Made by a program: the position numbers and the translations under genes. Source: Azospirillum fermentarium (GTDB taxonomy: Bacteria; Pseudomonadota; Alphaproteobacteria; Azospirillales; Azospirillaceae). Taken from it: a stretch of 64,000 nt of DNA. The DNA lies in the NCBI RefSeq assembly GCF_025961205.1, contig NZ_JAOQNH010000004.1, positions 62,001-126,000 on the forward strand, written 5' to 3'. Below the pieces are notes generated by a model. That model saw only the letters and a program-made list of their open reading frames with translations. It was not told the origin of the DNA and made no database searches. Of this stretch, positions 17,073-36,158 are shown in pieces (the first letter of the stretch is position 1; each line of letters starts with the position of its first letter).

Positions 17073-18905
17073 TCAGGCCCCCGGCACGGCAAACGCCTGG
17101 GGTTCACGACCCTCGCGGAACCGCGCGGCCATATAGGTGAATGCCCATTCCAGGCGGCCTGCGAAACGTTCCCCATCACACAAGGGAGATGCCAGCATAC
17201 GGGCACGCAAAGTCCGGCGAAGATTGGACAACCGGTATCGGTCCCCGGCAAGCGCAAGCGCTGCAGTCACAAACCGATCCTCATCGCCGGTACTCAGATC
17301 GGAAAGACCAAGGGTTACCAGAAAGCCCATGGTCTGCCGGGAAACCGGCCGCCGCCCGGCAAGGGTAACCACGGGAACGCCCATCCACAAAGCCTCGCAA
17401 CTGGTCAAGCCACCGTTGTAAGGGAACGGATCAAGGGCGATGTCGATCTGACCATAATCGGCGAGCATGGCGGGATGGGGCGAATGGCCCCGCAGCAGCA
17501 CCCGGTCAGAACCGATGCCATGGACGGCAAAACGGCGGCGGACCTCCGCCTGTTCCGACAGATCGGCGAGGGTGCGCCATTTCAGCACCAGACGGGCATC
17601 GGGAATGCTGCACAGCACCCGCGACCAAAGAGCAACCACCGTGGGCGTCAGCTTCTCCAGCTTGTTGAAGCTGCCGAACGTCACGAACCCATTGGCCTCT
17701 GCCGGAAGTGAGGCAACTGCAGGGGCATAATCCGGGGGCACATAACAAAAACGGCAATCCGGCAGCCGAACGATCTTTTCGGTAAAAAACACCTCCGCCC
17801 CCGGTGGCACACTGACCGCATCGAACAGGGCATAGTCCACGGCTGGGACGGCAGTGGTCGCAAAATAATCGAGCCATGAGACCTGAACCGGGGCGGCACG
17901 GCGCGCCAGCACCGGCAGGCGGTTTCCCCCCGAATGACCGGACACATCCACCAGGATGTCCAGCCTGTCGGCACGTGCCATCTCCCACACGGCCTCATCC
18001 GAAAAGCCGGCGGTGGCACGCCAGCCATCGGCCATCCCGCGCAGACGGACAGTCAAATCGTCCGGGATCCGGGCGTCATCATACAGTATGGCCGTGGTCT
18101 GGCGCCGATGGGCAAGAAAGGGTTCCAGGAAGTACCCGACGGGATGCCGGCCGATGCGGGCCCCCATGAAGCCCACGCGCAACGGTTCGCCGCTTTCCCT
18201 CTGCGGCGCTGCCGGCAAGCGGGCAGCCGGCAGTCCACCGGCCCATTCCCGGTGCAACCGGACCAGAGTGGCGTCGTCCACCCGTGGATCGAAATTCAGG
18301 GAATAGAGGAGGATGGACCCGGCCCGCAGCGGCTCGGGATCGGATGAGAGCACCGTTTGATAGGCCCGTATCCCCTCGTCGAAACGCCCGGCTTCGAAAT
18401 GAAGCGCCATCAGACGCCGCCCGGCCTCGAACCGTGCCGGATCGAGAGCGAGGGCGGTTTCCAGAGCCTGCCGCGCCCCCGTGGTCAACCCGGCTGCGGT
18501 CAGAGCCTGTCCCAGCAAGGTATGCGTCTCGGCAGCCAAGGCCGGGGGCAGATGGGCCAACAGTTGGGACAGGGCCACGAACGCTTCGTCCAGCCGTCCC
18601 CGCTCCAGTCGTATTTCCGCCAGCCGCAGCAGGGCCAGGGGATAAAGGGGGGCCTGGGACAACACCCGCAACAGGGCGGCTTCCGCCGCCTCCACCCGCC
18701 CCAGCCGCAGCAGGGCAAACGCTCGGGCCAGGATGGCGTCGGCCAGACCCGGGAACAGCATCAGAGTCCGTTCCGCGGTTTCAAGGCCGCGGGCGGCATC
18801 CCCGCACCGGCATTCCGCGAGGGCCAGGGCGGTCCAGGCGGCGGCATCGGCGGGCTGAAGGGCAACCTGCTGCCGGGCCGTCCGCAGAAGGGATGGAGTT
18901 TTCAT
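17073..18905 (-). CDS. SPINDLY-type O-GlcNAc transferase with short TPR region
   Basis: 610 residues. TPR units fill about 1-215. The GT41 catalytic part runs from about 243 to 590, with Arg-Val-Gly-Phe-Met-Gly-Ala-Arg-Ile-Gly-Arg-His (the GYVS-DF-H element, here altered to Gly-Phe-Met-Gly-Ala-Arg), the Gly-His-Ser-Gly-Gly-Asn-Arg block, Thr-Phe-Gly-Ser-Phe-Asn-Lys, and Glu-Ala-Leu-Trp-Met-Gly-Val-Pro-Val. The altered first element is odd, although its His is kept. It points toward repA, with its stop touching the right inverted repeat. Paralogue of the genes at 12826, 45015 and 57908. It probably glycosylates a protein acceptor in the cytoplasm; donor sugar unknown. Confidence 0.88.
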   Translation of the reverse strand: MKTPSLLRTARQQVALQPADAAAWTALALAECRCGDAARGLETAERTLMLFPGLADAILARAFALLRLGRVEAAEAALLRVLSQAPLYPLALLRLAEIRLERGRLDEAFVALSQLLAHLPPALAAETHTLLGQALTAAGLTTGARQALETALALDPARFEAGRRLMALHFEAGRFDEGIRAYQTVLSSDPEPLRAGSILLYSLNFDPRVDDATLVRLHREWAGGLPAARLPAAPQRESGEPLRVGFMGARIGRHPVGYFLEPFLAHRRQTTAILYDDARIPDDLTVRLRGMADGWRATAGFSDEAVWEMARADRLDILVDVSGHSGGNRLPVLARRAAPVQVSWLDYFATTAVPAVDYALFDAVSVPPGAEVFFTEKIVRLPDCRFCYVPPDYAPAVASLPAEANGFVTFGSFNKLEKLTPTVVALWSRVLCSIPDARLVLKWRTLADLSEQAEVRRRFAVHGIGSDRVLLRGHSPHPAMLADYGQIDIALDPFPYNGGLTSCEALWMGVPVVTLAGRRPVSRQTMGFLVTLGLSDLSTGDEDRFVTAALALAGDRYRLSNLRRTLRARMLASPLCDGERFAGRLEWAFTYMAARFREGREPQAFAVPGA

Positions 18906-19247: not shown

Positions 19248-20294
19248 TCACCCCACCATATCCCACGACAGAGGCTCGCCCGCGGCGATATCGCGCGTGG
19301 CATGACGCCCGAGAACCGTCGGCAGGGCCTTGGGCGGCAGCCCATGCCCCGGCCGTACCGAACGGATGTTGTCACGGCTGAAGACCTCGCCGCAGCCAAT
19401 GGGCTGGCTGGCATAGAGCGAGCGGCGGAACGCCAGAGATTTCATCTCGCCAGCGTCGGGCCCATATGTGATCCGCCCACGAGCCAGAAAGGCTGCGCGA
19501 CAACTGCGTACCAGTTCGACAAACTGCTCTTCCGTAGACGAGAACGCTGAATCCGCGGTCGCCGGCTCCCGGGTATCAATGACATGCTTCTCAACGACAC
19601 AAGCCCCCAAGGCAACGGCGCAGACTGCTTGGATGGCGTCGAGCGTGTGGTCCGAATAACCGACCGGAACACCGAAACGCGCCGCCATGTCGGGGATCGC
19701 CGCCAAATTGGCTTCCGACGGGTCGGCCGGGTAGCTGCTGTTGCATCGCAACAAAATCAGATCGCGGCCACCGGCTTTGCGGAAGGCCTCCACGGCGTCC
19801 GCAATGTCCTCCACCGCACACAGGCCGGTGGAAATGATGGTTGGTTTGCCGGTGGCGGCACAGGCGGCGACCAGTTCCAGATCCACGGCCTCGAACGATG
19901 CGATCTTGTAGGCCGGGGCCTCCAGCATCTCCATCAGCGCGATTCCGGCAATGTCGAACACCGAGGCGAAGGGAGTGATCCCCTGGGCACGCGCATGGGC
20001 GAACAGCGTGGGAAACCATTCGTACGGCGTGGCGGCGCGGGCATACAGGTCATAAAGCCGTTCGCCGTCCCACAACCCTCCTTCGATGTGGAAGTCGGGG
20101 CGGTTGGCGTCGAGCGTCAGGGAATCGGCGGTATAGACCTGGAACTTGACGGCATCGGCGCCGGCCTTGGCCGACAGATCGATGATCCGTTTGGCCCGCT
20201 CCAGGTCGCCGCCGTGGTTGGCCGACAGCTCGGCGATCATGTAGGGGGAAAAGCCGGGGCCGATGGAGCGGCCGGCAATGGTGATGGTATTCAT
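19248..20294 (-). CDS. pseI: pseudaminic acid synthase (nonulosonate synthase)
   Basis: 348 residues. NeuB-type enzyme that condenses phosphoenolpyruvate with a 2,4-diacetamido-2,4,6-trideoxy sugar (PseI: 6-deoxy-AltdiNAc) to give the nine-carbon acid. Seen are the Ile-Ala-Glu-Leu-Ser-Ala-Asn-His-Gly-Gly start of the TIM barrel (19-29), Lys-Phe-Gln (near 50), Cys-Asn-Ser-Ser-Tyr-Pro, Gly-Tyr-Ser-Asp-His-Thr, and Glu-Lys-His-Val-Ile with metal and substrate residues, then a C-terminal SAF/antifreeze-like domain (about 280-348, Arg-Pro-Gly-His-Gly-Leu). Ala-Asn-His fits PseI or LegI better than sialic acid synthase. ATG 20294 follows GGGAAGA. It lies 46 bases after pseC, forming the leftward unit pseB-pseC-pseI. 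Confidence 0.92.
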   Translation of the reverse strand: MNTITIAGRSIGPGFSPYMIAELSANHGGDLERAKRIIDLSAKAGADAVKFQVYTADSLTLDANRPDFHIEGGLWDGERLYDLYARAATPYEWFPTLFAHARAQGITPFASVFDIAGIALMEMLEAPAYKIASFEAVDLELVAACAATGKPTIISTGLCAVEDIADAVEAFRKAGGRDLILLRCNSSYPADPSEANLAAIPDMAARFGVPVGYSDHTLDAIQAVCAVALGACVVEKHVIDTREPATADSAFSSTEEQFVELVRSCRAAFLARGRITYGPDAGEMKSLAFRRSLYASQPIGCGEVFSRDNIRSVRPGHGLPPKALPTVLGRHATRDIAAGEPLSWDMVG

Positions 20295-20340
20295 CAGCAA
20301 CGGTCTTCCCTTATCCAAAACGTTTCGCCATACGGCATGG

Positions 20341-21546
20341 TCAACCGCGCACAATCCGGGTCAGGGCATGGGCTACCCGCTCGGCGTCCTCATCCGCCAT
20401 GTCCGGGAACAGCGGCAGGGACAGGCAGCGCGCGTAATAACGGTCGGCACCCGGCAAGTTGGCCATACCATAGCGCTGCCGGTAATAGGATTGGCGATGC
20501 ACCGGCAGGTAATGGACCTGAGTACCGATGCCCTCGGCGTCCAGCCGGCGCATCAGCGTGGCCCGGTCTGTTCCCAGCGCGGGGAAATCCATCAGGATGG
20601 CATAGAGATGCCAGCCCGGCCGCCCGCCGGTCCGGCCGGCCGGCCGGATCACGGGGGCCAACGGTGCCAGCAGGCGGTCGTAGAGTGTGACCAGTTCCCT
20701 GCGCCGGGCGATGAAGCGGTCAATGCGCTGGAGCTGGCTGAGCCCCAGAGCGCACTGCAGATCGCAGGCACGGTAATTGAACCCCGGTTCCGGCATCTCG
20801 TAGTACCAGGGGTTGGCGGCGCCTGCCGGATCCCATGCCTGATCCGCCATGGTGAAATCCGCGGGATCCCGGGTCATACCATGGTTGCGCAGGCGGGCCA
20901 CACGCCGGGCCAAGACAGGATCGTTGGTCGTGACAACGCCACCCTCTCCCATCGTGATGGTCTTTACGGGATGCAGCGAGAACACGGCCATGGTGGAATG
21001 CTGGCAGTTTCCCACCACATCGCCGGTTGCCGTTACACCGCCGACGGCATGGCAGGCATCCTCGACCACGGCCAGCTCCCGGGCGGTGGCAATGGCGGCG
21101 ATCCCGGCCATGTCCGCTGTCTGACCGTTCAGATGCACAGGATAAACGGCCTTCACCGGTCCGGGAGAGGTGGCCAGCGCGGCTTCCAGATCCTGGGGGC
21201 GCATCAGCCCGGTCTCGGGATCGCAATCGGCGAACACCACCTCGGCTCCGACATAGCGGGCGGCGTTGGCTGTCGCAAGAAAGGTCAGGGACGGCACCAC
21301 CACATGGTCGCCGGGCCCCAACCCCAAGGCAAGGGCGCTCAGGTGAAGCGCCGCCGTCCCGTTGCAGCAGGCCACGGCATGCGCGGCTCCGGTGATGCCG
21401 GCAAAGGCCGTCTCGAATGACGCGACCGCCGGCCCGCCGGTCAGCCAATCCCCCCGCAGCACCGCGGTGACAGCCGCAATGTCGCTCTCGTCGATGCTCT
21501 GCCTGCCGTAAGGCAGCCGGCGGGACATGGGAGGGGTGTCCGTCAT
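20341..21546 (-). CDS. pseC: UDP-4-keto-sugar aminotransferase (PseC type)
   Basis: 401 residues, DegT/DnrJ/EryC1 fold type I PLP enzyme. In the Pse pathway it puts an amino group on C4 of UDP-2-acetamido-2,6-dideoxy-L-arabino-hexos-4-ulose. Marks are Cys-Cys-Asn-Gly-Thr-Ala-Ala-Leu-His (PLP phosphate loop), Val-Glu-Asp-Ala-Cys-His-Ala-Val-Gly-Gly (Asp for the pyridine nitrogen), and Ser-Leu-His-Pro-Val-Lys, with the Schiff-base Lys just before Thr-Ile-Thr-Met-Gly-Glu-Gly-Gly. The opening Arg-Leu-Pro-Tyr-Gly-Arg-Gln-Ser-Ile fits PseC. Its start overlaps the pseB stop by four bases, so the two are translated in tandem. Confidence 0.92.
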   Translation of the reverse strand: MTDTPPMSRRLPYGRQSIDESDIAAVTAVLRGDWLTGGPAVASFETAFAGITGAAHAVACCNGTAALHLSALALGLGPGDHVVVPSLTFLATANAARYVGAEVVFADCDPETGLMRPQDLEAALATSPGPVKAVYPVHLNGQTADMAGIAAIATARELAVVEDACHAVGGVTATGDVVGNCQHSTMAVFSLHPVKTITMGEGGVVTTNDPVLARRVARLRNHGMTRDPADFTMADQAWDPAGAANPWYYEMPEPGFNYRACDLQCALGLSQLQRIDRFIARRRELVTLYDRLLAPLAPVIRPAGRTGGRPGWHLYAILMDFPALGTDRATLMRRLDAEGIGTQVHYLPVHRQSYYRQRYGMANLPGADRYYARCLSLPLFPDMADEDAERVAHALTRIVRG

Positions 21547-22565
21547 ATGTGGCCTTTATCGAAGAGCGTGTTGAGCCCGTCAGCGTCGAGCCATTCGGCA
21601 TTGTCGCCGCTTTCGTAGTGGAAATCCTCGGGCACGGGCTTTCCGCCGTAGTCGATGGATGGATCCCACATGGCGAAGGAGGGCTTGACGATGTAGCGGT
21701 CTTCCAGCTCCAGGGTGAGGCGGGCGTCGTCACGGGTGATGAGGGCCTCGTGGAGCTTCTCGCCCGGGCGGATGCCGATGGTGCGCAGGGGCAGGCCGGG
21801 TGCCATGGCACGGGCCAGATCGGTGATGCGCATGCTGGGGATCTTGGGCACCAGGATCTCGCTGCCCTTCATGGTGGCTAGGCAATCGACCACGAAATCC
21901 ACCCCCTGGGTGAGGGTGATCCAGAAGCGCGTCATCCGTTCGTCGGTGACCGGCAATTCCGTGGCCCCTTCGGCCAGGAGGCGACGGAACATCGGAACCA
22001 CGCTGCCGCGCGAGCCGATCACGTTGCCGTAGCGCACGACCGAGAAGCGGACGTCATCGTTGCCCGACAGGTGGTTGGCGGCGATGAAGATCTTGTCCGC
22101 GGCCAGCTTGCTGGCCCCGTACAGGTTGATCGGGTTCACCGCCTTGTCGGTGGACAGGGCCAGAACCCGGCCAACCTTGGCCCGCAGGGCCGCCCGCACC
22201 ACGTTTTCCGCCCCGTGGACGTTGGTGCGGATGCATTCGAAGGGGTTGTATTCGGCTGCCGGCACATGCTTGAGCGCCGCGGCGTGGACAACGGTGTCGA
22301 TCCCGCGCATCGCCAGGTCCAGGCGGTCGGCGTCGCGCACGTCGCCGATGAAGTAGCGCAGCGCCGGATGACGCCCGAACGCCAGGTTCTGCTGCATCTC
22401 GAACTGCTTGAACTCATCGCGGGAGAACACGACAACCCGCGCCGGCGCCGCCTCGCTCAGGATCTTCTCGATGAAGCGCTGCCCGAACGACCCCGTGCCA
22501 CCGGTGATCAGGATCGATTTGCCGTTCAGGGCCGCATAGGATGACGCCCGACGATAGTCCCGCAT
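21543..22565 (-). CDS. pseB: UDP-GlcNAc 4,6-dehydratase (inverting), copy 1
   Basis: 340 residues. First enzyme of CMP-pseudaminate synthesis: it dehydrates UDP-GlcNAc and inverts C5. It has the NAD(P) loop Thr-Gly-Gly-Thr-Gly-Ser-Phe-Gly (21-28), Thr139-Asp140-Lys141 (the PseB catalytic Asp-Lys) and Tyr149-x3-Lys153. The start is Met-Arg-Asp-Tyr with a short N-terminal lead. Ser235 is Cys in copy 2 (27216-28238); the two proteins are otherwise the same. It heads the leftward set pseB-pseC-pseI. The copy in its natural operon context is this one, so it is probably the older of the two. Confidence 0.93.
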   Translation of the reverse strand: MRDYRRASSYAALNGKSILITGGTGSFGQRFIEKILSEAAPARVVVFSRDEFKQFEMQQNLAFGRHPALRYFIGDVRDADRLDLAMRGIDTVVHAAALKHVPAAEYNPFECIRTNVHGAENVVRAALRAKVGRVLALSTDKAVNPINLYGASKLAADKIFIAANHLSGNDDVRFSVVRYGNVIGSRGSVVPMFRRLLAEGATELPVTDERMTRFWITLTQGVDFVVDCLATMKGSEILVPKIPSMRITDLARAMAPGLPLRTIGIRPGEKLHEALITRDDARLTLELEDRYIVKPSFAMWDPSIDYGGKPVPEDFHYESGDNAEWLDADGLNTLFDKGHI

Positions 22566-23231: not shown

Positions 23232-24128
23232 ATGATCGAGGCCGTCGACATATACCGGAAAATGATCCTGATCCGCCGCTTCGAAGAGCTCCTGCTGGAG
23301 CTTTTCTCGGCGGGCAAGCTTTCCGGCACCACACACACTTATGTAGGCCAAGAGCCAGTGGCGATCGCGGTGGCTAGCCATCTCGGCCCGGGCGATTGCG
23401 TCTTCAGCAACCACCGTTGCCACGGTCATTACATTGCCCATACCGGCGACATCGAGGGTTTGTTGGCCGAGATTATGGGCCGTACCGGGGGCGTGTGCGG
23501 CGGGCGCGGCGGTAGCCAGCACCTGCACCGGGGAAACTTCTATTCCAATGGGATCCAGGGCGGCTTTATGCCCATCGTGGTCGGCATGGCGCTGGCGGAG
23601 AAGAAGAGGGCCCGCGGAAACGTGGTGGTCGCTTTTATCGGCGATGGAACCCTCGGCGAGGGGGCCGTGTACGAAGCACTGAACATGGCCGCCTTGTGGT
23701 CGGTGCCCCTGCTGGTGGTGGTCGAAAACAACCGTTACGCCCAATCGACTCCCATTACGCTGGGGGTAGCCGGATCGATCCCGGACCGGGGGCGGTGTTT
23801 CGGCCTGTCCGTGGGAGAGAGTGACGGCTGGGATGTAACGGGGCTGACCGCACGTTTCGGAACCCTGGTGGCGCAGGTACGCAACGAGGGGCGGCCCCAT
23901 ATGGAAGTCGTCGAGACATACCGCCTGAACGCCCACTCGAAGGGGGACGACACCCGCGCGACCATGGAGGTGGCGGCCTTTCGTGCCCGTGATCCGGTGG
24001 AGCATTGGGGCAGAGGGCTTCCACCCGGCCTGCGAGCTGCTGTCGATGCCGAAGTCGCGGGCCGCCTTGCCGAAACCCTGGCGGCGGTCGAGGCCATGCC
24101 TCTTGCCCAACTGGCGGAGGTGGGCTGA
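23232..24128 (+). CDS. 2-oxoacid dehydrogenase E1 alpha subunit
   Basis: 298 residues, slightly short for the AcoA/PdhA family (about 320). An upstream ATG at 23193 would add 13. With the beta subunit it binds thiamine diphosphate, decarboxylates a 2-oxoacid and transfers the acyl group to a lipoyl domain. The thiamine motif Gly-Asp-Gly-Thr (137-140) through Glu-Asn-Asn (165-167) is intact. So are His-Arg-x-His-Gly-His (61-66) and the Arg-Gly-Gly-Ser-Gln-His-Leu-His block near 92-99. The start has GGGA 7 bases upstream. Its stop overlaps the E1 beta start (TGATG). Pathway neighbours are nonulosonate genes, not central metabolism. Confidence 0.9.
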   Translation: MIEAVDIYRKMILIRRFEELLLELFSAGKLSGTTHTYVGQEPVAIAVASHLGPGDCVFSNHRCHGHYIAHTGDIEGLLAEIMGRTGGVCGGRGGSQHLHRGNFYSNGIQGGFMPIVVGMALAEKKRARGNVVVAFIGDGTLGEGAVYEALNMAALWSVPLLVVVENNRYAQSTPITLGVAGSIPDRGRCFGLSVGESDGWDVTGLTARFGTLVAQVRNEGRPHMEVVETYRLNAHSKGDDTRATMEVAAFRARDPVEHWGRGLPPGLRAAVDAEVAGRLAETLAAVEAMPLAQLAEVG

Positions 24129-25138
24129 TGCGTGTGGTCGAATCCCTCAACGGTGCTCTTCACCGCATGATGGCCGCCGATCCCGAGGTGGTGCTGATCG
24201 GCGAGGATGTCCTCGACCCCTACGGCGGCGCGTTCAAGGTCTCCAAGGGGTTGTCCACCGCCTTTCCCGGCCAGGTTATCACCACGCCCATCTCGGAAGC
24301 GGGTCTGGTCGGGGTGGCTGTTGGCATGAGCCTGCAGGGCTTCAAGCCGGTGGCCGAGATCATGTTCGGTGATTTCGTCACTCTGGCCATGGACCAGATC
24401 ATCAACCACGCCGCCAAATTCCCCTGGATGTTCGGGCTGGCGGCGCTGCCGCTGGTGGTCAGGGTGCCCATGGGCGGTTACCGGGGTTATGGACCGACCC
24501 ACAGCCAGTCTCTGGAAGCGCTGTTCATGGCGGTACCGGGACTGACCATGGTGGCACTTTCTCATCTCCACGATCCGGGGGCACTGCTGGAGCGGGCAAC
24601 GCTCGACGCTGGGGTGCCGATCCTGTTCGTCGAAAACAAGAGCCTTTATCCTGTGGAACTGGAAGAGGGCGACATGGTGGGCGGTCTGCACCGCCGGGTC
24701 CTCGATCCACGGCGGCCTTATCCGAGCGTGGCCCTGAGTGCGGCTCCAGACGAGCGGCCCGACGTCACTCTTGTTGCCTACGGCGGTCTTGTGCCCATGG
24801 CGGTCAGAGTCGCTGCTGAAGCCATGATTGAGGATGAGATCCTGGTCGAGGTGGTGGTGCCCGCACAGCTGCGCCCTTTGCCGATCGAGGATATCCTGGT
24901 GTCGGCAGAGGCGTCGGGGCGGGTTCTGGTGATCGAGGAAGGGCCGCGCGTCGGTGGCTGGGGTGCCCATGTGGCGGCGGATTTGACGGAGCGGGCCTTC
25001 GGCCGGCTGAAGGCCCCGGTCGCCCGCATTGGCGCCAGGGACGTGCCGATCCCCAGCGCCCGGCAGATGGAAGCCCAGATGCTTCCGGCGGCCGGGGATG
25101 TGTTGGCGGGGATCCGGGATCTGATGGGAAAGTCGTAG
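24128..25138 (+). CDS. 2-oxoacid dehydrogenase E1 beta subunit
   Basis: 336 residues, the usual AcoB/PdhB length. Conserved features include Gly-Glu-Asp-Val near 25-28 (Glu for the thiamine aminopyrimidine), Thr-Pro-Ile-Ser-Glu-Ala-Gly near 58-64, a Gln-Ile-Ile-Asn-His-Ala-Ala-Lys segment, Pro-Met-Gly-Gly-Tyr-Arg-Gly-Tyr-Gly-Pro-Thr-His-Ser-Gln near 119-132, and the C-terminal domain with Leu-Arg-Pro-Leu-Pro-Ile-Glu and a Glu-Glu-Gly-Pro block. Nothing looks broken. The start overlaps the alpha stop by one base, so the subunits are coupled. Four bases after its stop begins the lipoyl-fusion gene, which takes the place of a normal E2. No E3 (lipoamide dehydrogenase) gene is in the window. Confidence 0.9.
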   Translation: MRVVESLNGALHRMMAADPEVVLIGEDVLDPYGGAFKVSKGLSTAFPGQVITTPISEAGLVGVAVGMSLQGFKPVAEIMFGDFVTLAMDQIINHAAKFPWMFGLAALPLVVRVPMGGYRGYGPTHSQSLEALFMAVPGLTMVALSHLHDPGALLERATLDAGVPILFVENKSLYPVELEEGDMVGGLHRRVLDPRRPYPSVALSAAPDERPDVTLVAYGGLVPMAVRVAAEAMIEDEILVEVVVPAQLRPLPIEDILVSAEASGRVLVIEEGPRVGGWGAHVAADLTERAFGRLKAPVARIGARDVPIPSARQMEAQMLPAAGDVLAGIRDLMGKS

Positions 25139-25142
25139 GCTC

Positions 25143-26264
25143 ATGCATATGCATATCCAGACGGTCCCCCAACTGGGGGTGAACGACGACACCGTGCGTA
25201 TCACGCGCTGGCTGGTGGCCGAGGGTGAGCGCGTGGCGCCGGGCATTGCCATCGCCGAGGTGGAGACCACGAAGGCGGCAGTGGAAATCACCGCCGACGT
25301 GGGCGGGCTGGTGGTGTTCCTGGCGGCCGAGGGCGATTCGCTGGCGGTCAGTAAGCCCTTGGTATTGCTGGGAGACGACCTGTCCGTTCTGGAACAGGAA
25401 CGGGACAGCCGTCTGGCGGCGTGCCCCGACAGTGCCGCCGTCGCGGCTGGGGGCGCCGGCGAGATGGTGACCCGGAAGGCGGCCCGTCTGGCGGCGGAGC
25501 ATGGGCTCGATCCCGCCGTGGTGGCGGCGGAAACCAGGGGGATCGTCCGTGAAGCCGATGTCAGGCGCTTTCTGGCCGCGCGGACGATTGCGGAGCGGGC
25601 TCTGCCCGAGCGTTTTCCGGCTCTGAACGGGCGCAAACCGGTTCTGATCTGGGGAATTGGCAATGGTGCGGTGACCATGCGCGAGGCATTGTCCCTGGGC
25701 GACGCCTATGACGTGGTCGGCTTCATCGCCGACCGACCATCCGATTCCGCCGTCAAGGACGAGCTTCCTGTGTATCCCGATACAGTGCTGCCGCAACTGG
25801 CGGCGAGCGGGGTCTCAGGGGTCGGGCTTGCCATCACGTCGAGCGAACAGCGCTTGGAGAATTGCCGGCGTCTGCTCACGCTGGGCATCGAACCCCTGAT
25901 GGTGCAGCACCCGCGCGCCTGGGTGGCCCCTTCCGCCCGGATTGGGAAGGGCTGCCATATCAAGGCGGGGGCGGTGGTCGAGACCCGCGTGGAAATCGGG
26001 ATGGCCTGCCAGATTGATAACGGCGTAATCGTCGCCCACGATACCTGCATCGGTGACGGCTGCCATGTGGCCCCTGGTGCCTCGCTGGGCTCCAGCGTCA
26101 CCGTTGGGGCCGGAACCATCATCGGCATCGGCGCGTCGGTGGCGACCGATGTCCGTATCGGGGATCACAGCATCGTGGTGGTCGGCAGTTCCGTCACGCG
26201 TGACGTTCCCCAGCGTTCGATCATCGAGGGGGTTCCAGGCCGGACCATCGGCCGCCGCCGGTGA
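25143..26264 (+). CDS. lipoyl domain - subunit-binding domain - NeuD/PglD-type acyltransferase fusion
   Basis: 373 residues in three parts. Residues 1-80 are a lipoyl domain with Glu-Thr-Thr-Lys44-Ala, the place of lipoylation. Residues about 108-146 look like a peripheral subunit-binding domain (Thr-Arg-Lys-Ala-Ala-Arg-Leu, Gly-Leu-Asp, Gly-Ile-Val-Arg-Glu-Ala-Asp-Val). Residues about 166-255 are the Rossmann-like start of a NeuD/PglD sugar N-acetyltransferase (Ile-Trp-Gly-Ile-Gly-Asn-Gly). Residues 256-373 are a left-handed beta helix with His299 (Val-Ala-His-Asp-Thr, the PglD catalytic His place) and His308. In ordinary E2 the third part is a chloramphenicol-acetyltransferase-like domain, which is absent here. 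The direct link with E1 suggests lipoyl-borne acyl groups go to an amino sugar. ATG at 25143 or 25149. Confidence 0.88.
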   Translation: MHMHIQTVPQLGVNDDTVRITRWLVAEGERVAPGIAIAEVETTKAAVEITADVGGLVVFLAAEGDSLAVSKPLVLLGDDLSVLEQERDSRLAACPDSAAVAAGGAGEMVTRKAARLAAEHGLDPAVVAAETRGIVREADVRRFLAARTIAERALPERFPALNGRKPVLIWGIGNGAVTMREALSLGDAYDVVGFIADRPSDSAVKDELPVYPDTVLPQLAASGVSGVGLAITSSEQRLENCRRLLTLGIEPLMVQHPRAWVAPSARIGKGCHIKAGAVVETRVEIGMACQIDNGVIVAHDTCIGDGCHVAPGASLGSSVTVGAGTIIGIGASVATDVRIGDHSIVVVGSSVTRDVPQRSIIEGVPGRTIGRRR

Positions 26265-26448
26265 CGGGCGCGATGGCGGGGCTCACGCCCTGAGCAGGGG
26301 TGATCGCCCCGATGAGGGTAACCTCGGTCGGAGACGCCTCCCTTGCAGCGCATTTCGACATCACGGCCTTGGCACATCAGAGGCCGCCGGGAGCGTCCAT
26401 CCCATCGCCTACCGATCCACCGCTTCCATCGCACGAGAGGCTTTCGCC

Positions 26449-27183
26449 ATGACCACCGCCATCATCGTCCAGGCGCGCATGACCTCCACCCGCCTTCCGG
26501 GAAAGGTGCTGTTGCCGCTGGGTGACCGCACGGCCCTGGCCCAGGTGCTCGGGCGTTGCCGGCTGGTGCGTGGTGTGGATGTGGTGTGTTGCGCGGTCCC
26601 CGATGCTCCCGCCTCCGACCCGGTGGCAGCCGAAGCCGAAGCCTGCGGTGCGGTGGTGGTGCGCGGTTCGGAGCATGACGTTCTCGGCCGCTACCGCCAG
26701 GCTGCCGAAGTGGTGGCGGCGGATCTTGTGATGCGGGTGACCAGCGATTGCCCGCTCATCGACCCGGAAAGCTGCGCTGCCGTTATCGCCGAGGTCGCCG
26801 CCGGCCGTGCCGACTATGCCTGCAACAACATGCCGCGCACCTGGCCCCATGGTCTGGATTGCGAGGCTTTCCCCGCCGCTCTGCTGGAGCGGGCGGGGCG
26901 GGAGGCAACGGCGCCGTATGAGCGCGAGCATGTAACGCCCTGGATGCGCACCCATCCCGGCCTGCGCCGGGTCAATGTGCCCGGACCCCGTCCGGAGCAG
27001 GCGGGCCTGCGCTGGACCCTCGATTTTCCCGAAGATTACGTTTTTCTCAAAGCGGTGTTCGGCCACTTGCCGCCGCTGCCGGAGGTTCCGTCAGCGACGG
27101 CCGTTGCTGCCATGGTCGCCGCCGACCCGGGGTTGTCCGCAGCTGCCGAGCGGTGTCTTGAAACGGCCCGCCGTCACGCCTGA
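26449..27183 (+). CDS. SpsF-type cytidylyltransferase (probable CMP-nonulosonate synthetase)
   Basis: 244 residues. Gln-Ala-Arg-Met-Thr-Ser-Thr-Arg-Leu-Pro-Gly-Lys-Val at 8-20 is the nucleotide loop of the SpsF/acylneuraminate cytidylyltransferase group; Ser-Asp-Cys-Pro-Leu-Ile-Asp-Pro holds the metal-binding Asp. The family activates sugar acids as CMP derivatives. No classical PseF is in the window, so this protein or its paralogue at 37194 may do that step; this is inference. A good ribosome site (GAGAGG, 8 bases before the ATG at 26449) fixes the start, although the frame is open further upstream. It follows the lipoyl-fusion gene after 184 bases on the same strand and converges on pseB copy 2. 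Confidence 0.85.
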   Translation: MTTAIIVQARMTSTRLPGKVLLPLGDRTALAQVLGRCRLVRGVDVVCCAVPDAPASDPVAAEAEACGAVVVRGSEHDVLGRYRQAAEVVAADLVMRVTSDCPLIDPESCAAVIAEVAAGRADYACNNMPRTWPHGLDCEAFPAALLERAGREATAPYEREHVTPWMRTHPGLRRVNVPGPRPEQAGLRWTLDFPEDYVFLKAVFGHLPPLPEVPSATAVAAMVAADPGLSAAAERCLETARRHA

Positions 27184-27215: not shown

Positions 27216-28238
27216 TCATATGTGGCCTTTATCGAAGAGCGTGTTGAGCCCGTCAGCGTCGAGCCATTCGGCGTTGTCGCCGCTTTCGTAGTGGAAATCC
27301 TCGGGCACGGGCTTTCCGCCGTAGTCGATGGATGGATCCCACATGGCGAAGGAGGGCTTGACGATGTAGCGGTCTTCCAGCTCCAGGGTGAGGCGGGCGT
27401 CGTCACGGGTGATGAGGGCCTCGTGGAGCTTCTCGCCCGGGCGGATGCCGATGGTGCGCAGGGGCAGGCCGGGTGCCATGGCACGGGCCAGATCGGTGAT
27501 GCGCATGCTGGGGATCTTGGGCACCAGGATCTCGCAGCCCTTCATGGTGGCCAGGCAATCGACCACGAAATCCACCCCCTGGGTGAGGGTGATCCAGAAG
27601 CGCGTCATCCGTTCGTCGGTGACCGGCAACTCCGTGGCCCCTTCGGCCAGGAGGCGGCGGAACATCGGAACCACGCTGCCGCGCGAGCCGATCACGTTGC
27701 CGTAGCGCACGACCGAGAAGCGGACGTCATCGTTGCCCGACAGGTGGTTGGCGGCGATGAAGATCTTGTCCGCAGCCAGCTTGCTGGCCCCGTACAGGTT
27801 GATCGGGTTCACCGCCTTGTCGGTGGACAGGGCCAGAACCCGGCCAACCTTGGCCCGCAGGGCCGCCCGCACCACGTTTTCCGCCCCGTGGACGTTGGTG
27901 CGGATGCATTCGAAGGGGTTGTATTCGGCTGCCGGCACATGCTTGAGCGCCGCGGCGTGGACAACGGTGTCGATCCCGCGCATCGCCAGGTCCAGGCGGT
28001 CGGCGTCGCGCACGTCGCCGATGAAGTAGCGCAGCGCCGGATGACGCCCGAACGCCAGGTTCTGCTGCATCTCGAACTGCTTGAACTCGTCGCGGGAGAA
28101 CACGACAACCCGCGCCGGCGCCGCCTCGCTCAGGATCTTCTCGATGAAGCGCTGCCCGAACGACCCCGTGCCACCGGTGATCAGGATCGATTTGCCGTTC
28201 AGGGCCGCATAGGATGACGCCCGACGATAGTCCCGCAT
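27216..28238 (-). CDS. pseB: UDP-GlcNAc 4,6-dehydratase (inverting), copy 2
   Basis: 340 residues, identical to the product at 21543-22565 except Cys for Ser at residue 235, far from the Thr-Asp-Lys and Tyr-x3-Lys catalytic groups, so it is presumably active. It stands alone: the genes at its 3' side converge on it and the PseG fusion gene diverges from its start. It has no pseC following it, and its last bases run straight into the junction with unrelated sequence at 27215. That fits a duplicated gene carried as the end of an inserted cassette. Confidence 0.92.
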   Translation of the reverse strand: MRDYRRASSYAALNGKSILITGGTGSFGQRFIEKILSEAAPARVVVFSRDEFKQFEMQQNLAFGRHPALRYFIGDVRDADRLDLAMRGIDTVVHAAALKHVPAAEYNPFECIRTNVHGAENVVRAALRAKVGRVLALSTDKAVNPINLYGASKLAADKIFIAANHLSGNDDVRFSVVRYGNVIGSRGSVVPMFRRLLAEGATELPVTDERMTRFWITLTQGVDFVVDCLATMKGCEILVPKIPSMRITDLARAMAPGLPLRTIGIRPGEKLHEALITRDDARLTLELEDRYIVKPSFAMWDPSIDYGGKPVPEDFHYESGDNAEWLDADGLNTLFDKGHI

Positions 28239-28499: not shown

Positions 28500-29990
28500 A
28501 TGCCGAAAGTCTGTTTCCGTTGCGACGCCTCTCCCGCCATCGGGATGGCCCATGTCCTGCGTTGCGTGGCGCTGGCCGAGGTCCTGGCCGAAATGGAATG
28601 GGACGTGGTCTTTGCCTGCAGCAGGGACACCCATGCCACGGTTCCCTACATCGCGGCCATGGGGTTTGATGTCCTGCCCCTGGACGTGATGGCTCAGGAT
28701 GAACCGGCGGCCCTGGGTGCCCGCTGGGCCAAGGGCTGCGACCTGCTGGTGATCGATCATTACGGACGGGACGCCGAGTTCGAACGGGCCTGCCGCCTCT
28801 GGGCGCGGCACATCCTGGTTTTCGACGACCTTGCAGACCGGCCCCACGATGCCGACCTGCTCCTCGATCCGACGCTGGGGCGTACTGCCGATCATTACGC
28901 CGGCCTGGTGCCGTCGGGGTGCCGACTGCTGCTGGGGCCCCGTTACGCCCTGCTGCGCTCCAACTTCGTCAACGTCTGCTCCACCGCGCCGGCTCGGCGG
29001 GCCGAACACCGGTCGGTGGACCGAATCCTCGTCAGCCTAGGCACCAACAACCCGTTCAACAGCACTGAACTGGCACTCGATTCCCTGAAATTGGCAGGGA
29101 TCGACGCCGAGATCGACGTCATCCTCGGTCCTCACACCGTCGGTCAGTCCGAACTGCTCCGGCGCGCCGCCCGGATGCAGCAGAAGGTGAACATCCACAC
29201 CGACAGCCGCTCTGTCGCCCCGGTGATGGCGCGGGCCGATCTCGCCATCGCCGCCGCGTCCGTCACCTCGTGGGAGCGCTGCTACTTCGGGCTGCCGACC
29301 ATTGCTGTCCTGACCAGCGAGAATATGCGCTTCTTCGCCCGGCAGATGGCCGAACAGGACATCGTCATGCTGGTGGAGCACGGCCGCGAGGATATCACCC
29401 AGCAGATCGCCCGGCGCCTGCGCGATCTTGCGGCCAGCCCGTCCCTGCTCGCCCGCTTGAGGGAGGCCGCGTCCTCAGTCTGCGATGGGCTGGGCCTCGT
29501 GCGCCTGCTCAACGTGCTGGCACCGGTGTGTGCGCGCGACGGCAAGCCGGTGTTGCTGCGCCCAGTCGAGGCGGTGGACGCGCCCCTGGTCGGGGCATGG
29601 CTGTCAGACCCCCGGCTGCCGCCCTTGTCGCGGGTGGCCGGCGGCGTGGCGGCCTGGCTTGATCTGCGCCTGTCCGATCCCGCCTCGCGGCTGATGATGA
29701 TCATCCATGGCGACCGTCCCGGCGGACTGGTCCGTCTCGACCGCCGGGAGGACGGGGGAGAGGCGTCCCACGAGGTCTCCCTGTTCATCGCCCCCGACAG
29801 CGGTGGCTTGGGCCTGGGCCGCGCTGTGCTGCATCTGGTTCGCCGGGTTCTGCCGGGCGTGGAAATCCGGGCGCCGATGATGTTCAACACCCTGGCCAGC
29901 CATGCCCTGTTCCGTCAAGCCGGCTTCGTCGCCTCCAGCGGCTATTATCGCCGCCTGTCGCGCCTGCCGGCGGGGCGTTACAACCATTGA
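28500..29990 (+). CDS. pseG: PseG-type UDP-sugar hydrolase fused to a GNAT acetyltransferase
   Basis: 496 residues. Residues 1-340 match PseG, the GT-B-fold hydrolase that removes UDP from UDP-2,4-diacetamido-2,4,6-trideoxy-L-altropyranose: Arg-Cys-Asp-Ala-Ser-x2-Ile-Gly-x2-His18-Val-x-Arg near the start and a Leu-Gly-Thr-Asn-Asn switch near 178-182. Residues about 347-490 are a GNAT domain with an Ile-Ala-Pro-Asp-x3-Leu-Gly-Leu-Gly-Arg-Ala acetyl-CoA loop, in the place expected for PseH, which N-acetylates C4. One chain could thus do two successive steps. ATG at 28500 has AGAGG just upstream. Its stop overlaps the TTG start of the HAD gene. It diverges from pseB copy 2. Confidence 0.88.
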   Translation: MPKVCFRCDASPAIGMAHVLRCVALAEVLAEMEWDVVFACSRDTHATVPYIAAMGFDVLPLDVMAQDEPAALGARWAKGCDLLVIDHYGRDAEFERACRLWARHILVFDDLADRPHDADLLLDPTLGRTADHYAGLVPSGCRLLLGPRYALLRSNFVNVCSTAPARRAEHRSVDRILVSLGTNNPFNSTELALDSLKLAGIDAEIDVILGPHTVGQSELLRRAARMQQKVNIHTDSRSVAPVMARADLAIAAASVTSWERCYFGLPTIAVLTSENMRFFARQMAEQDIVMLVEHGREDITQQIARRLRDLAASPSLLARLREAASSVCDGLGLVRLLNVLAPVCARDGKPVLLRPVEAVDAPLVGAWLSDPRLPPLSRVAGGVAAWLDLRLSDPASRLMMIIHGDRPGGLVRLDRREDGGEASHEVSLFIAPDSGGLGLGRAVLHLVRRVLPGVEIRAPMMFNTLASHALFRQAGFVASSGYYRRLSRLPAGRYNH

Positions 29991-30700
29991 GCCGGCCGGT
30001 ATCGAGCGGTCCGGCGTCCTTTTCGGACGCGGCGGGACAGGGGCTGTTCCTGGACCTCGACGGCACCCTGGCCGACAGCCTGGGGATCATGCGCCGGGCT
30101 TACGACGGGTTCCTGGCCGTTTACGGCCATTCCGGCCTGGACGCAGAGTTTGCCGCCCTGAATGGTCCACCGCTGCGGGAGATCGTGCGTATCCTGAAGC
30201 GGACCCGTGGATTGACGTCGCCGCCGGATGAGTTGCTCGCCGTCTACCGTGAACAGATCGAACATCATTACCTGACCGGTGTTGCTCCGGCCGCCGGTGC
30301 GGAAGCGTTGCTGGCAGCGGCACGGGCGCGAGGATGGCGGGTGGCGGTGGTGACATCCAATCGCAGGGGTCTGGCTTGGGAGTGGCTGGGCACTGTGGGG
30401 CTGGCGGACTTTGTCGAAACCGTCGTGGGGGGCGAGGACGTGATGTGCGGCAAACCCGCTCCCGACCCGTATCTGGCGGCCATCCGTGCGCTGGACTGTG
30501 CGCCGGCCCGCTCCCTGGCGGTGGAAGATTCGCCGCAGGGGGCGCAGGCCGCGCTTGCCGCCGGCCTGGAAACCCACGTCGTGGGGAGCGGGCCCGGTCC
30601 CGGCTGGCCGGAGGGGATCGCCGTCTTCCTGCCCCGACTAGCGGACTTGACCCGCCTGTTTCAGGAGGGCGGGGTAGAAAAGATCGCGAGAGATTGCTGA
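29987..30700 (+). CDS. HAD-superfamily phosphatase
   Basis: 237 residues. Motif I Leu-Asp-Leu-Asp-Gly-Thr-Leu-Ala-Asp-Ser at about 22-31 has both catalytic Asp residues; motif II is Val-Thr-Ser-Asn near 120; motif III is Lys-Pro-Ala-Pro-Asp-Pro; motif IV is Val-Glu-Asp-Ser. The alpha-helical cap after motif I fits the phosphoglycolate-phosphatase subgroup. The only start before motif I in this frame is a TTG at 29987 overlapping the previous stop (TTGA), so expression depends on the PseG fusion gene. In nonulosonate clusters a phosphatase could remove phosphate from an Ser/PEP-derived or sugar-phosphate intermediate. PseI releases phosphate itself, so the exact substrate is open. Confidence 0.85.
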   Translation: MSRPVSSGPASFSDAAGQGLFLDLDGTLADSLGIMRRAYDGFLAVYGHSGLDAEFAALNGPPLREIVRILKRTRGLTSPPDELLAVYREQIEHHYLTGVAPAAGAEALLAAARARGWRVAVVTSNRRGLAWEWLGTVGLADFVETVVGGEDVMCGKPAPDPYLAAIRALDCAPARSLAVEDSPQGAQAALAAGLETHVVGSGPGPGWPEGIAVFLPRLADLTRLFQEGGVEKIARDC

Positions 30701-33882: not shown

Positions 33883-34869
33883 TCAAGCAGGTGTGAGCGC
33901 TGCCGGGAACGGCTGCTCTTCCCCTCTCCGCGGCAGGTTCAGCGGCCCGTGCAGAGGATGGCGCGGCCAGAGGGAGACCGCTGGCCGGCCAAGCGCGCCG
34001 GCCTCTACGAACAGGGTGCTGTCCATGCCGGCCACAACATCGGCTGCCAACACGGCGTGCAGGCTGTCGCCGTCGGTGCTGACCACCACCGTGGGTGGGG
34101 CGGCGTAGCGGTCGTATTTGCCGGGCGTGTCCTTGGGGTGGGGGCGGATCACCACACAGGCTCCGGCCTCCGCCGCCTGGGCGAGGACGTGTTCCAGGCA
34201 GGCGAATTCGTCATAGCGGGCTATGCGGCCCGTGGCGCACATCTCGGCCTGGGCCTCACCGGGAAACAGAACCACCACGGCACCGGGGGAAACCCCCCAC
34301 GTCAGGCGCAGCGCCGCGGCCGCTTCCGCTGATACCCGGCTGCCGCACCGGTGCAGCCGTGCTTTGTGCAGGTCGCCGCCCAGCCGCAGCCGTCCGCGTG
34401 GAACGCCCTGCGCTTCCAGCCCGGCGGCCATGGCAGCATCGATGGCGAAAACATGATCGGGATAGGTGACGCCGCCGTCCCGGCTACGGAACCGTTCGCC
34501 GAGGTTGGCGGAGTGATCGATGAAGGCGGCACAGGGCAAACCGGCAGCCCGTGCCGCCTGCCACAACCTTTGCGGGCTGTCGTCGTCCACGTCGCTGGTG
34601 GCGGTCAGCACTGTGTCTACGCCAAGCTCTGCCAGCCAAGCGGCTCCATCCCGGCCATCCGGCCAGACGGCCGGCTCGATCCCGGCCCGCCGCCAGACGG
34701 CCACGGCATGGTCCCGACCGCCCGCCACCACCTTCACGGGGCCGAGCGATGCCGCGAAGCCGGCAAGGTCCGGGGTAGGCGCCGGCATGACCCCGGTCAG
34801 CACGTCGTGCAGCCCGGCCATCTGGTTTGCCCCGCCGGCATCCCGGCTGAACAGCAGAACCCGCTTCAT
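33883..34869 (-). CDS. GT-B-like sugar protein, possible glycosyltransferase or epimerase-like
   Basis: 328 residues. The start is Leu-Leu-Phe-Ser-Arg-Asp-Ala-Gly-Gly-Ala-Asn, a glycine-rich loop. The second half has Val-Leu-Phe-Pro-Gly-Glu, Val-Val-Ile-Arg-Pro-His-Pro-Lys-Asp and Gly-Met-Asp-Ser-Thr-Leu-Phe-Val-Glu-Ala, a pattern of GT-B proteins related to CDP-glycerol/UDP-GlcNAc-2-epimerase-like folds. No membrane segment is seen. The ATG at 34869 overlaps the stop of the aminotransferase gene (ATGA). It is the last gene of a four-gene overlapping unit (37943 to 33883), so it is likely to use or transfer the sugar made by the other three. The specific reaction is not known. Confidence 0.72.
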   Translation of the reverse strand: MKRVLLFSRDAGGANQMAGLHDVLTGVMPAPTPDLAGFAASLGPVKVVAGGRDHAVAVWRRAGIEPAVWPDGRDGAAWLAELGVDTVLTATSDVDDDSPQRLWQAARAAGLPCAAFIDHSANLGERFRSRDGGVTYPDHVFAIDAAMAAGLEAQGVPRGRLRLGGDLHKARLHRCGSRVSAEAAAALRLTWGVSPGAVVVLFPGEAQAEMCATGRIARYDEFACLEHVLAQAAEAGACVVIRPHPKDTPGKYDRYAAPPTVVVSTDGDSLHAVLAADVVAGMDSTLFVEAGALGRPAVSLWPRHPLHGPLNLPRRGEEQPFPAALTPA

Positions 34870-36158
34870 GCCGCCTGGCTGCCCTTGGCCAGCGCAGCCA
34901 GGCGGTGGCGGGCCGCGTGGACCTTGTGGAAGGCGTCCGCGATCCGGTCGATCGCGTCCTGCTCCAACTGATGGGAGCAGATGGCGAAGCTGAGAAGCTC
35001 GGTCTCGTGCATCCGCTCGCACACCGGGGCGAGCCCGTCGGGATAGCGCCGTTCGCTCAGGCTGAAGGGCCAGCCGCCTCCGAACGCCTGGCGCCGCTGG
35101 AACGGCGGCAGGCGGTACAGGGGCCGTACGTACCCCTGACCCAGGGGGACGCCTTCAGCGGCCATGGCCTGGGCAAACAGGGCGCGTGGCACACCCACGG
35201 CGCCGGCATCGTAGCGCGCCGCCCACACATAGTAGACGTGCCGGCACCCCGCACGCACGGCCGGCGGCGTCAGCCCCTCCAGCCCGGACACCGCCGCGGT
35301 CAGGCGGGCGGCCAGTTCCTCGCGCCGGCTGACGATGACGCCGGCGCGTTCGAGCTGGGCCAGCCCCACCGCTGCCGACAGTTCCGACAGACGGTAGTTG
35401 AAACCGACCAGACCGGATGCGTCCTCGACGCCGAAGGCCTCGATCAGGTTTTCTCCGTGGTTGCGGATCAGGCGCAGACGCAGGGCCAGCCGCTCGTCGT
35501 CGGTGACGCAGACCCCGCCCTCGCCGGTCTGGACGTGTTTGTGGCGGTTGAGGCTGAACACCCCGATGTGGCCGACGGTACCGGCCTGCCGGCCGTGCTC
35601 GGCGGCCAGCGGTCCCTGGGCGTTGTCTTCTACCAGATACAGCCCGCGTGCATCGGCCAAGGCCCGCAGCTCGGCCAGGCGGGCGGGATGGCCGAAGAGG
35701 TTGACGGCCAGGATCGCGCGGGTCCGGGGGGTGATGGCCGCTGCCACCTGCGCCGGGTCGAGGCAGAAGGTCTCCGGCTCGATGTCGACGAATACCGGGA
35801 TGCCGCCGTAGATCAGGGGGGCCATCGCCGTCGCCGACATGGTGTAGGGCGGTACGATGACCTCGTCCCCCGGCTCCAGGCCGATGGCGCCCATGGCCGC
35901 GTACAAGCCGGAGGTGGCGGAATTGACGGTGACCGCGTAGCGGCAGCCGAAATGCCCGCACCACTGGCGTTCCAGTTCGCGGACCATGGGGCCTCCGTCA
36001 AACTCGGGGCCATCGACGGCGATGAAGCCGGACAGGACGCCGCTGTCCATCACCTCCAGGACACGGGCACGTTCCAGCGGGCCGATCTGGTTGTAGGGGG
36101 CCAGCGGCGCGCCGATCACCGGCGTTCCGCCCAGCAGGGCCAAGTCGTTGCTCGTCAT
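34866..36158 (-). CDS. DegT/DnrJ/EryC1 sugar aminotransferase
   Basis: 430 residues. PLP-dependent fold type I transaminase acting on keto sugars. Seen are Asn-Ser-Ala-Thr-Ser-Gly-Leu (PLP phosphate), Val-Glu-Asp-Asn-Ala-Gln-Gly (pyridine Asp) and Asn-Arg-His-Lys-His-Val-Gln-Thr-Gly-Glu-Gly-Gly with the Schiff-base Lys. It is less like PseC than the gene at 20341 and slightly longer. Its partner oxidoreductase upstream would supply the keto sugar, as in 3-amino or 4-amino sugar routes (Wlb-like); this is inference. ATG 36158 has GGAGAG about 9 bases upstream and overlaps the upstream stop as ATGA. Confidence 0.88.
   Translation of the reverse strand: MTSNDLALLGGTPVIGAPLAPYNQIGPLERARVLEVMDSGVLSGFIAVDGPEFDGGPMVRELERQWCGHFGCRYAVTVNSATSGLYAAMGAIGLEPGDEVIVPPYTMSATAMAPLIYGGIPVFVDIEPETFCLDPAQVAAAITPRTRAILAVNLFGHPARLAELRALADARGLYLVEDNAQGPLAAEHGRQAGTVGHIGVFSLNRHKHVQTGEGGVCVTDDERLALRLRLIRNHGENLIEAFGVEDASGLVGFNYRLSELSAAVGLAQLERAGVIVSRREELAARLTAAVSGLEGLTPPAVRAGCRHVYYVWAARYDAGAVGVPRALFAQAMAAEGVPLGQGYVRPLYRLPPFQRRQAFGGGWPFSLSERRYPDGLAPVCERMHETELLSFAICSHQLEQDAIDRIADAFHKVHAARHRLAALAKGSQAA

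Follow-up and report, generated by a model that had tools for sequence, protein, structure and literature searches.

Why would an amino-sugar acyltransferase be fused to a lipoyl domain, and why would it lie directly behind the two genes of a dehydrogenase-type E1 component? This question is raised by three genes in a stretch of 64,000 nucleotides from Azospirillum fermentarium (contig NZ_JAOQNH010000004.1 of assembly GCF_025961205.1, positions 62,001 to 126,000; hereafter the window), which belongs to a genome of 5.89 Mb in 4 contigs. At window positions 23232-26264, a cassette within a pseudaminate-type sugar cluster encodes E1-alpha, E1-beta and a protein in which a lipoyl domain is joined to a NeuD-type acyltransferase domain (lipoyl-NeuD). 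Judging from the sequences, and with moderate confidence, we read this cassette as a lipoyl-charged amino-sugar acyltransferase, in which a ketose-derived glycolyl group would be loaded onto the lipoyl arm and passed on to yield an N-glycolyl amino sugar.

All three open reading frames (ORFs) are intact, and their frames and coordinates are exact (Table 1). The TGA stop of E1-alpha and the ATG start of E1-beta overlap as TGATG, and 4 bases separate the E1-beta stop from the start of lipoyl-NeuD. The ORFs and the Pfam and NCBIfam families thus agree with the original prediction, made from the DNA letters alone, that intact E1-alpha and E1-beta genes adjoin the third gene. Its list of domains for the third protein stands for the lipoyl domain, in which Lys44 (codon 25272-25274) sits within VETTKAA, and for the NeuD/PglD-type third domain, which occupies the place of the E2 catalytic core PF00198; for that core, Pfam and NCBIfam scans of the fusion protein gave no match. 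The NeuD_NnaD score is a near miss of the curated cut-off of 160.8 bits. In an AlphaFold2 model of the fusion protein (mean predicted local distance difference test score of 86, from an alignment of ten sequences), the NeuD-type part has its left-handed beta-helix, its Rossmann-like N-terminal portion and its catalytic His all present, and the closest solved structures by Foldseek are those of PerB, a GDP-perosamine N-acetyltransferase (4ea7/4eaa, TMt 0.89-0.90), followed by PglB and PglD. His299 (codon 26037-26039) aligns with PerB H141, the residue mutated in 4eaa/4eab. The subunit-binding domain, which was also on the list, is probable only: residues 111-151 of the model form a helix, a short helix and a helix, as expected for such a domain, while Pfam E3_binding had no match reported for the window fusion protein and a weak one in three of ten relatives (best E 0.0027).

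Chance or a frame artefact is ruled out by ten independent copies. Including the one in the window, ten lipoyl-NeuD genes were found, the nine others being 20-74% identical to it, and each of the ten lies directly downstream of E1 genes (in L065 the contig begins inside E1-beta, leaving E1-alpha out of view). The lipoyl Lys and the catalytic His of the NeuD part are invariant in all of them, even though identity to the window protein drops to 20%. In a further genome of the genus, two diverged copies of the cassette occupy different loci (L033 and L034), and in one of them E1-alpha and E1-beta are fused. The relative with 73% full-length identity comes from a metagenome-assembled genome of an uncultured member of the Rhodospirillaceae, where the locus holds E1-alpha, E1-beta, a HAD protein, a pseudaminate synthase (501.5 bits), a cytidylyltransferase and a DegT aminotransferase. 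Surveys with hidden Markov models across 385 genomes of the class and 398 of the phylum yielded six further full-length fusions, these copy counts being lower bounds, as few candidates were scored per genome; 296 genomes of the order to which genome G645 belongs held no additional full-length copies. The original prediction had proposed to look for co-occurrence of E1-alpha, E1-beta and lipoyl-hexapeptide fusions in sugar loci, and this is what we found, with nearly all ten lipoyl-NeuD cassettes in such a setting: next to pseB/pseC (L097), flagellin and DegT genes (L095), dTDP-sugar genes (L094), a DegT gene (L034) or sialate-type genes (L098), while the closeness of contig ends leaves little context visible around L033 and L065. 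Such a rare and patchy occurrence would fit horizontal spread of the cassette.

Two sialate-type loci bear on what the lipoyl arm is for. In L098, the operon runs from a NeuB-like gene through NeuC (417 bits, cut-off 235.9), a dihydrolipoyl dehydrogenase and a polysaccharide deacetylase to an E1-alpha-beta fusion and lipoyl-NeuD. The third of these genes (L098:13158-14573) encodes a dedicated dihydrolipoamide dehydrogenase (E3; 447 bits, cut-off 408.8), which fits an acyl-transfer cycle on lipoyl, as such a cycle needs E3 and a NeuD dependent on coenzyme A (CoA) would not. L171, found by means of the E1 model, encodes a 740-aa lipoyl protein (L171:5495-7717) that is joined, through a long, Pro/Ala-rich linker, to a different hexapeptide beta-helix acyltransferase. 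Its neighbours are E1-alpha, E1-beta, NeuC (447.7 bits), NeuB (460.8 bits), a deacetylase related to the one in L098 (23% identity), DegT and a NeuD that stands alone. That two structurally different acyltransferases have been joined to this module, in loci of a like kind, argues that the hand-off is the point of the arrangement, and the acceptor domain of the module, whether E2-type, NeuD or another beta-helix, appears to be exchangeable. From the recurrence of a diverged cassette, the invariant Lys and His and the E3 of L098 we infer, with good support, an acyl hand-off from lipoyl to sugar. To this extent the route that was originally proposed, from E1 via the lipoyl arm to an amino sugar without free acyl-CoA, is supported; its 2-oxoacid donor is not.

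So what would E1 load onto the lipoyl arm? Among plasmid-borne sequences, the window E1-alpha is most similar to RenH, from the renieramycin cluster, and to E1s from actinomycete loci (48-52%); pyruvate dehydrogenase (PDH) and acetoin enzymes are 37-43% identical to it. In a maximum-likelihood tree of concatenated E1 sequences, 18 rows from lipoyl-NeuD, non-ribosomal peptide synthetase (NRPS) and degenerate-E2 loci form a single clade as opposed to six 2-oxoacid dehydrogenases, with support of 100/100; the NRPS side is represented by the E1s of RenH, Streptomyces, S. cattleyicolor and Nonomuraea, and the E1 of L098 is sister to RenH (98/94). The window E1s miss the PDH equivalog cut-offs of both TIGR03182 and NF006667 (Table 1). 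Residues that mark the clade, T33, T36, Q96, S105, Q171, K237 and D240 in E1-alpha and Y121 and T124 in E1-beta, are absent from the six 2-oxoacid dehydrogenases, and where the dehydrogenases have GF-x-H-L, all 15 clade members compared read GT-x-H-T, making for a more polar pocket. Nearly all members of the clade, though not the degenerate L102 and L169, carry the lipoyl motif E[TG][STA]K in place of the ETDK or ETEK of the dehydrogenases, and an N-D/E signature was also noted for the lipoyl domain of the window. In a search of 398 genomes, clade E1s scored at least 323 bits and all other E1s at most 259. Central metabolism in A. fermentarium is served by other E1s, which have lipoyl proteins of their own; this, together with the position of the cassette E1 outside the clade of the 2-oxoacid dehydrogenases, rules out a displaced housekeeping PDH.

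On the NRPS side, an annotated locus has an acyl carrier protein (ACP), E1-alpha, E1-beta and a so-called E2 (lipoyl-E2) beside NRPS genes, and in four of four RenH-type loci the DHRxxDG motif of the lipoyl-E2 has lost its Asp. Lipoyl-E2 proteins also adjoin clade E1s in L099, L100, L101, L102, L169, L170 and L131-L134; the motif variants among those read are DHRxxNG, DHRxLTG and DHRLLAG, and several lie in genomes of the same phylum without clear NRPS context. That all gammaproteobacterial degenerate lipoyl-E2 versions belong to NRPS clusters is not supported, their contexts being mixed or unclear. A pattern scan for ACPs around the E1 loci matched at no locus and is uninformative for that reason. 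According to PMC6335953, QncN, QncL and QncM were shown to form a C2 glycolicacyl unit and to attach it; the homologous SclQ1-4 have the same domain order, and the donor proposed there is a ketose phosphate such as xylulose-5-phosphate (Xu5P). For Rif15, a two-subunit transketolase dependent on thiamine diphosphate (ThDP), Xu5P was the best donor in vitro, and fructose-6-phosphate (F6P), ribulose-5-phosphate, sedoheptulose-7-phosphate and dihydroxyacetone were also used (PMC6002545). Taken together, the RenH/NRPS clade, the QncN/QncL-type layout and the glycolyl transfer reported for it lead us to read the acyl group as glycolyl, and not as branched or propionyl. The originally suggested 2-oxoacid donor, giving branched, propionyl or butyryl groups, finds no support in the clade of these E1s, in their signature residues or in an architecture known for ketose-derived glycolyl transfer; hydroxyacyl is what remains of the acyl groups then listed.

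In the mechanism that we propose, E1-alpha and E1-beta with ThDP would cleave a ketose, most probably a phosphorylated one such as Xu5P or F6P, to give dihydroxyethyl-ThDP, from which the two-carbon unit would be moved reductively to Lys44, the predicted site of lipoylation, as glycolyl-dihydrolipoyl. The arm could then swing to the fused beta-helix, where His299, acting as general base, would aid attack by the sugar amine, so that the glycolyl group ends up on an amino group of a pseudaminate-pathway sugar. In the window the acceptor may be the PseC product, whose amine becomes N7 of pseudaminate, or else some other amino sugar or a later intermediate. The 4-amino sugars on which PglD and PerB act are of the same kind as the PseC product. 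Dihydrolipoyl would be reoxidised by dihydrolipoamide dehydrogenase, drawn from the housekeeping pool in the window and encoded in the operon in L098, and the resulting N-glycolyl nonulosonate would probably be placed on flagellin by an adjacent enzyme with tetratricopeptide repeats (TPRs) and a GT41 domain (TPR-GT41).

Several points weigh against this mechanism. Support for the subunit-binding domain is weak, the cassette of the window contains no recognised E3 gene, and the window protein retains a GVPGR tail of the type seen in CoA-dependent relatives. The window E1 is not strongly placed within its clade, where the deeper branches have 81-86% support, and clade membership of QncN, QncL, NapB, NapD and Rif15, which are absent from the tree, rests on architecture and on the proxies named above. 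A rather unlikely alternative would keep the same hand-off and have E1 decarboxylate a 2-oxoacid such as pyruvate, hydroxypyruvate or a branched one, so that the group transferred would be acetyl, glycolyl (from hydroxypyruvate) or branched. The window E1 does have the fold and the Pfam and NCBIfam family of a PDH-type E1, the catalytic-site histidines of both subunits are retained in the alignment, and acyl groups from 2-oxoacids were proposed for a related E1/E2-NRPS system (PMC5384830). It is the grouping of these E1s with RenH, outside the sampled 2-oxoacid dehydrogenases, and the uniform GT-x-H-T motif that speak against such a donor.

The lipoyl domain and E1 might instead do an unrelated job, the fusion being a scaffold for a NeuD domain that uses acetyl-CoA as usual. 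NeuD, PglD and PerB do so (4ea7, 4m99, 3bsy), and the tail kept in the window protein agrees with it, yet the strict linkage to E1 over a wide divergence, the invariant lipoyl Lys, the E3 of L098 and, in L171, a further fusion to a beta-helix of another type make this explanation improbable. The CoA-binding tail itself (GxPA[KR]) is kept in three of the ten fusions, including that of the window, versus 47 of 83 stand-alone proteins, and we dropped its loss as proof of chemistry without CoA. Least credible to us, and only barely so, is that E1 works as a carboligase in the manner of Rif15, adding a C2 unit to the carbon skeleton of the sugar or making an ester directly, without a lipoyl intermediate. 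Rif15 acts in this way, and its paper mentions no lipoyl (PMC6002545), but behind the clade E1s that we examined lies a lipoyl protein whose lysine is intact and, in the sugar loci, also an acyltransferase domain.

How does the lipoyl-charged acyltransferase compare with what is known? The systems for quinocarcin (QncN/QncL/QncM), naphthyridinomycin (NapB/NapD), scleric acid (SclQ1-4) and renieramycin (RenH/RenI) share with it the apparent E1 clade, the lipoyl motif, a lipoyl gene adjoining E1 and the lack of a CoA acceptor, whereas their lipoyl protein has an E2-type core that charges an ACP for an NRPS, where the window has a NeuD-type core in a nonulosonate cluster. The pyruvate, acetoin and branched-chain 2-oxoacid dehydrogenase complexes resemble it in E1 fold, in a lipoyl domain with a modifiable Lys, in the probable subunit-binding domain and in the need for E3; in contrast to them, the window system is without the PF00198 core, has an E1 outside their clade and would use a sugar instead of CoA as acceptor. 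Fold, catalytic His and sugar-cluster setting are those of the hexapeptide sugar N- or O-acetyltransferases NeuD, PglD and PerB, which stand alone and depend on acetyl-CoA, unlike the window protein with its fused lipoyl arm and cognate E1. CMAH (CMP-Neu5Ac hydroxylase) and the mycobacterial formation of N-glycolylmuramate also yield N-glycolyl sugars, but they do so by hydroxylating an existing N-acetyl group, whereas the transfer proposed here is of an entire glycolyl group. Carbohydrate N-acyltransferases are known to use acyl-CoA or acyl-ACP. In the pepteridine pathway (Photorhabdus plu2796 region), it has been proposed that E1/E2-like proteins pass an acyl group on to a free small molecule, a pterin, through a T-C NRPS fusion and not, as here, to a sugar through a beta-helix enzyme (PMC5384830). 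The claim that no system of this kind had been described therefore holds for the sugar acceptor, but not for carrier proteins, given quinocarcin and naphthyridinomycin, and delivery to pterin had at least been proposed. We found no paper joining lipoyl with NeuD, and among the papers listed by a search on nonulosonic acids, lipoyl and E1 were only lipoyl and PDH papers. What would be new is that a fused sugar acyltransferase hands the acyl group to a sugar, of which no example was found in the literature searched; delivery from E1 and lipoyl to carrier proteins was already known.

The setting of the cassette is that of a pseudaminate cluster, as had been predicted, with PseB, PseC, PseI and PseG equivalogs that all score above their NCBIfam cut-offs. 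Ahead of the cassette, on the minus strand, lie PseI, PseC and PseB; the cytidylyltransferase, a second PseB, PseG with its GNAT-like extension and the HAD phosphatase follow it. The C-terminal part of PseG has no NCBIfam PseH match and its GNAT-like signal is weak; this domain may handle ordinary acetylation, in competition with the cassette. In Caulobacter, FlmG, with an N-terminal TPR and a C-terminal GT-B part, attaches pseudaminate to flagellin (PMC7591256), and with this precedent the upstream TPR-GT41 proteins make flagellin a reasonable target.

Table 1. Features of the cassette and of the surrounding locus in window coordinates
Feature	Coordinates	Strand	Evidence
TPR-GT41, FlmG-like candidate flagellin O-glycosyltransferase	12826..15501	+	Glyco_transf_41 169 bits + TPRs
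Second TPR-GT41 protein	17073..18905	-	Glyco_transf_41 104 bits + TPRs
PseI pseudaminate synthase	19248..20354	-	TIGR03586 417.5 bits
PseC aminotransferase	20341..21546	-	TIGR03588 490.4 bits
PseB copy 1	21543..22565	-	TIGR03589 508.9 bits
E1-alpha (ThDP-binding), RenH/NRPS-cluster E1 clade	23232..24128	+	PF00676 (E1_dh) 155.7 bits; TIGR03182 225.6 vs cut-off 393.9; tree; signature residues
E1-beta	24128..25138	+	PF02779 (Transket_pyr) 102.7 bits; PF02780 (Transketolase_C) 81.2 bits; NF006667 212 vs cut-off 321
Lipoyl - probable subunit-binding - NeuD-type acyltransferase fusion, 373 aa	25143..26264	+	
Lipoyl domain	25161..25367	+	PF00364 (Biotin_lipoyl) 41.2 bits, residues 7-75
Probable peripheral subunit-binding domain	25464..25580	+	helices 111-119, 124-128, 137-151 in AlphaFold2 model
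NeuD/PglD/PerB-type left-handed beta-helix acyltransferase	25641..26243	+	TIGR03570 (NeuD_NnaD) 144.4 bits, residues 167-367; Foldseek
CMP-sugar synthetase-like cytidylyltransferase, 3' of fusion gene	26443..27183	+	PF02348 75.7 bits
PseB copy 2	27216..28238	-	TIGR03589 508.8 bits
PseG fused to GNAT-like C-terminal domain	28500..29990	+	TIGR03590 233.5 bits; PF00583 21 bits
HAD phosphatase	29987..30700	+	PF13419
DegT aminotransferase, homologue in locus L029 (398 bits)	34866..36248	-	PF01041

Some further features of the locus were observed. The two pseB copies form direct repeats of about 1 kb, 99.3% identical, that flank the block of E1, lipoyl-NeuD and cytidylyltransferase genes, and homologous recombination between them could delete or duplicate this block. 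Homologues of the HAD phosphatase lie directly 3' of lipoyl-NeuD in L029 (10119-10745) and L065 (2169-2828), and phosphoglycolate phosphatase is among the best NCBIfam matches of the HAD protein, far below the cut-off. At window positions 34866-37943, a second block consists of a DegT aminotransferase, a Gfo/Idh oxidoreductase and a cytidylyltransferase; homologues of the DegT and cytidylyltransferase genes near the cassette of L029 hint at a second modified sugar. A RepA_C plasmid replication protein is encoded beside the sugar cluster at 16003-16941, which suggests that the contig carrying the cassette may be a plasmid or chromid.

If the proposed transfer is true, it would tie surface-sugar chemistry to ThDP and lipoate metabolism and to the pentose phosphate pool, and it would explain how sialic-acid-like sugars come to bear unusual hydroxy-acyl groups in some bacteria. 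Nonulosonates with hydroxy-acyl groups would thereby gain a gene marker; for the glyceroyl group on pseudaminic acid of Tannerella, the gene 'remains elusive' (PMC6120980). The apparent exchangeability of the acceptor domain would be useful for enzyme design. More tentatively, the cassette could represent a dedicated pathway by which bacteria make N-glycolyl amino sugars without acyl-CoA. In the loci that also encode NeuC, NeuB, a deacetylase and, in L098, E3, N-glycolyl would take the place of N-acetyl, giving sugars like N-glycolylneuraminic acid (Neu5Gc) or N-glycolyl legionaminate without CMAH. According to a 2018 review, no study had demonstrated Neu5Gc on microbes (PMC6288428). If the sialate-type loci do make N-glycolyl sugars, bacteria would have a route to them that is independent of CMAH.

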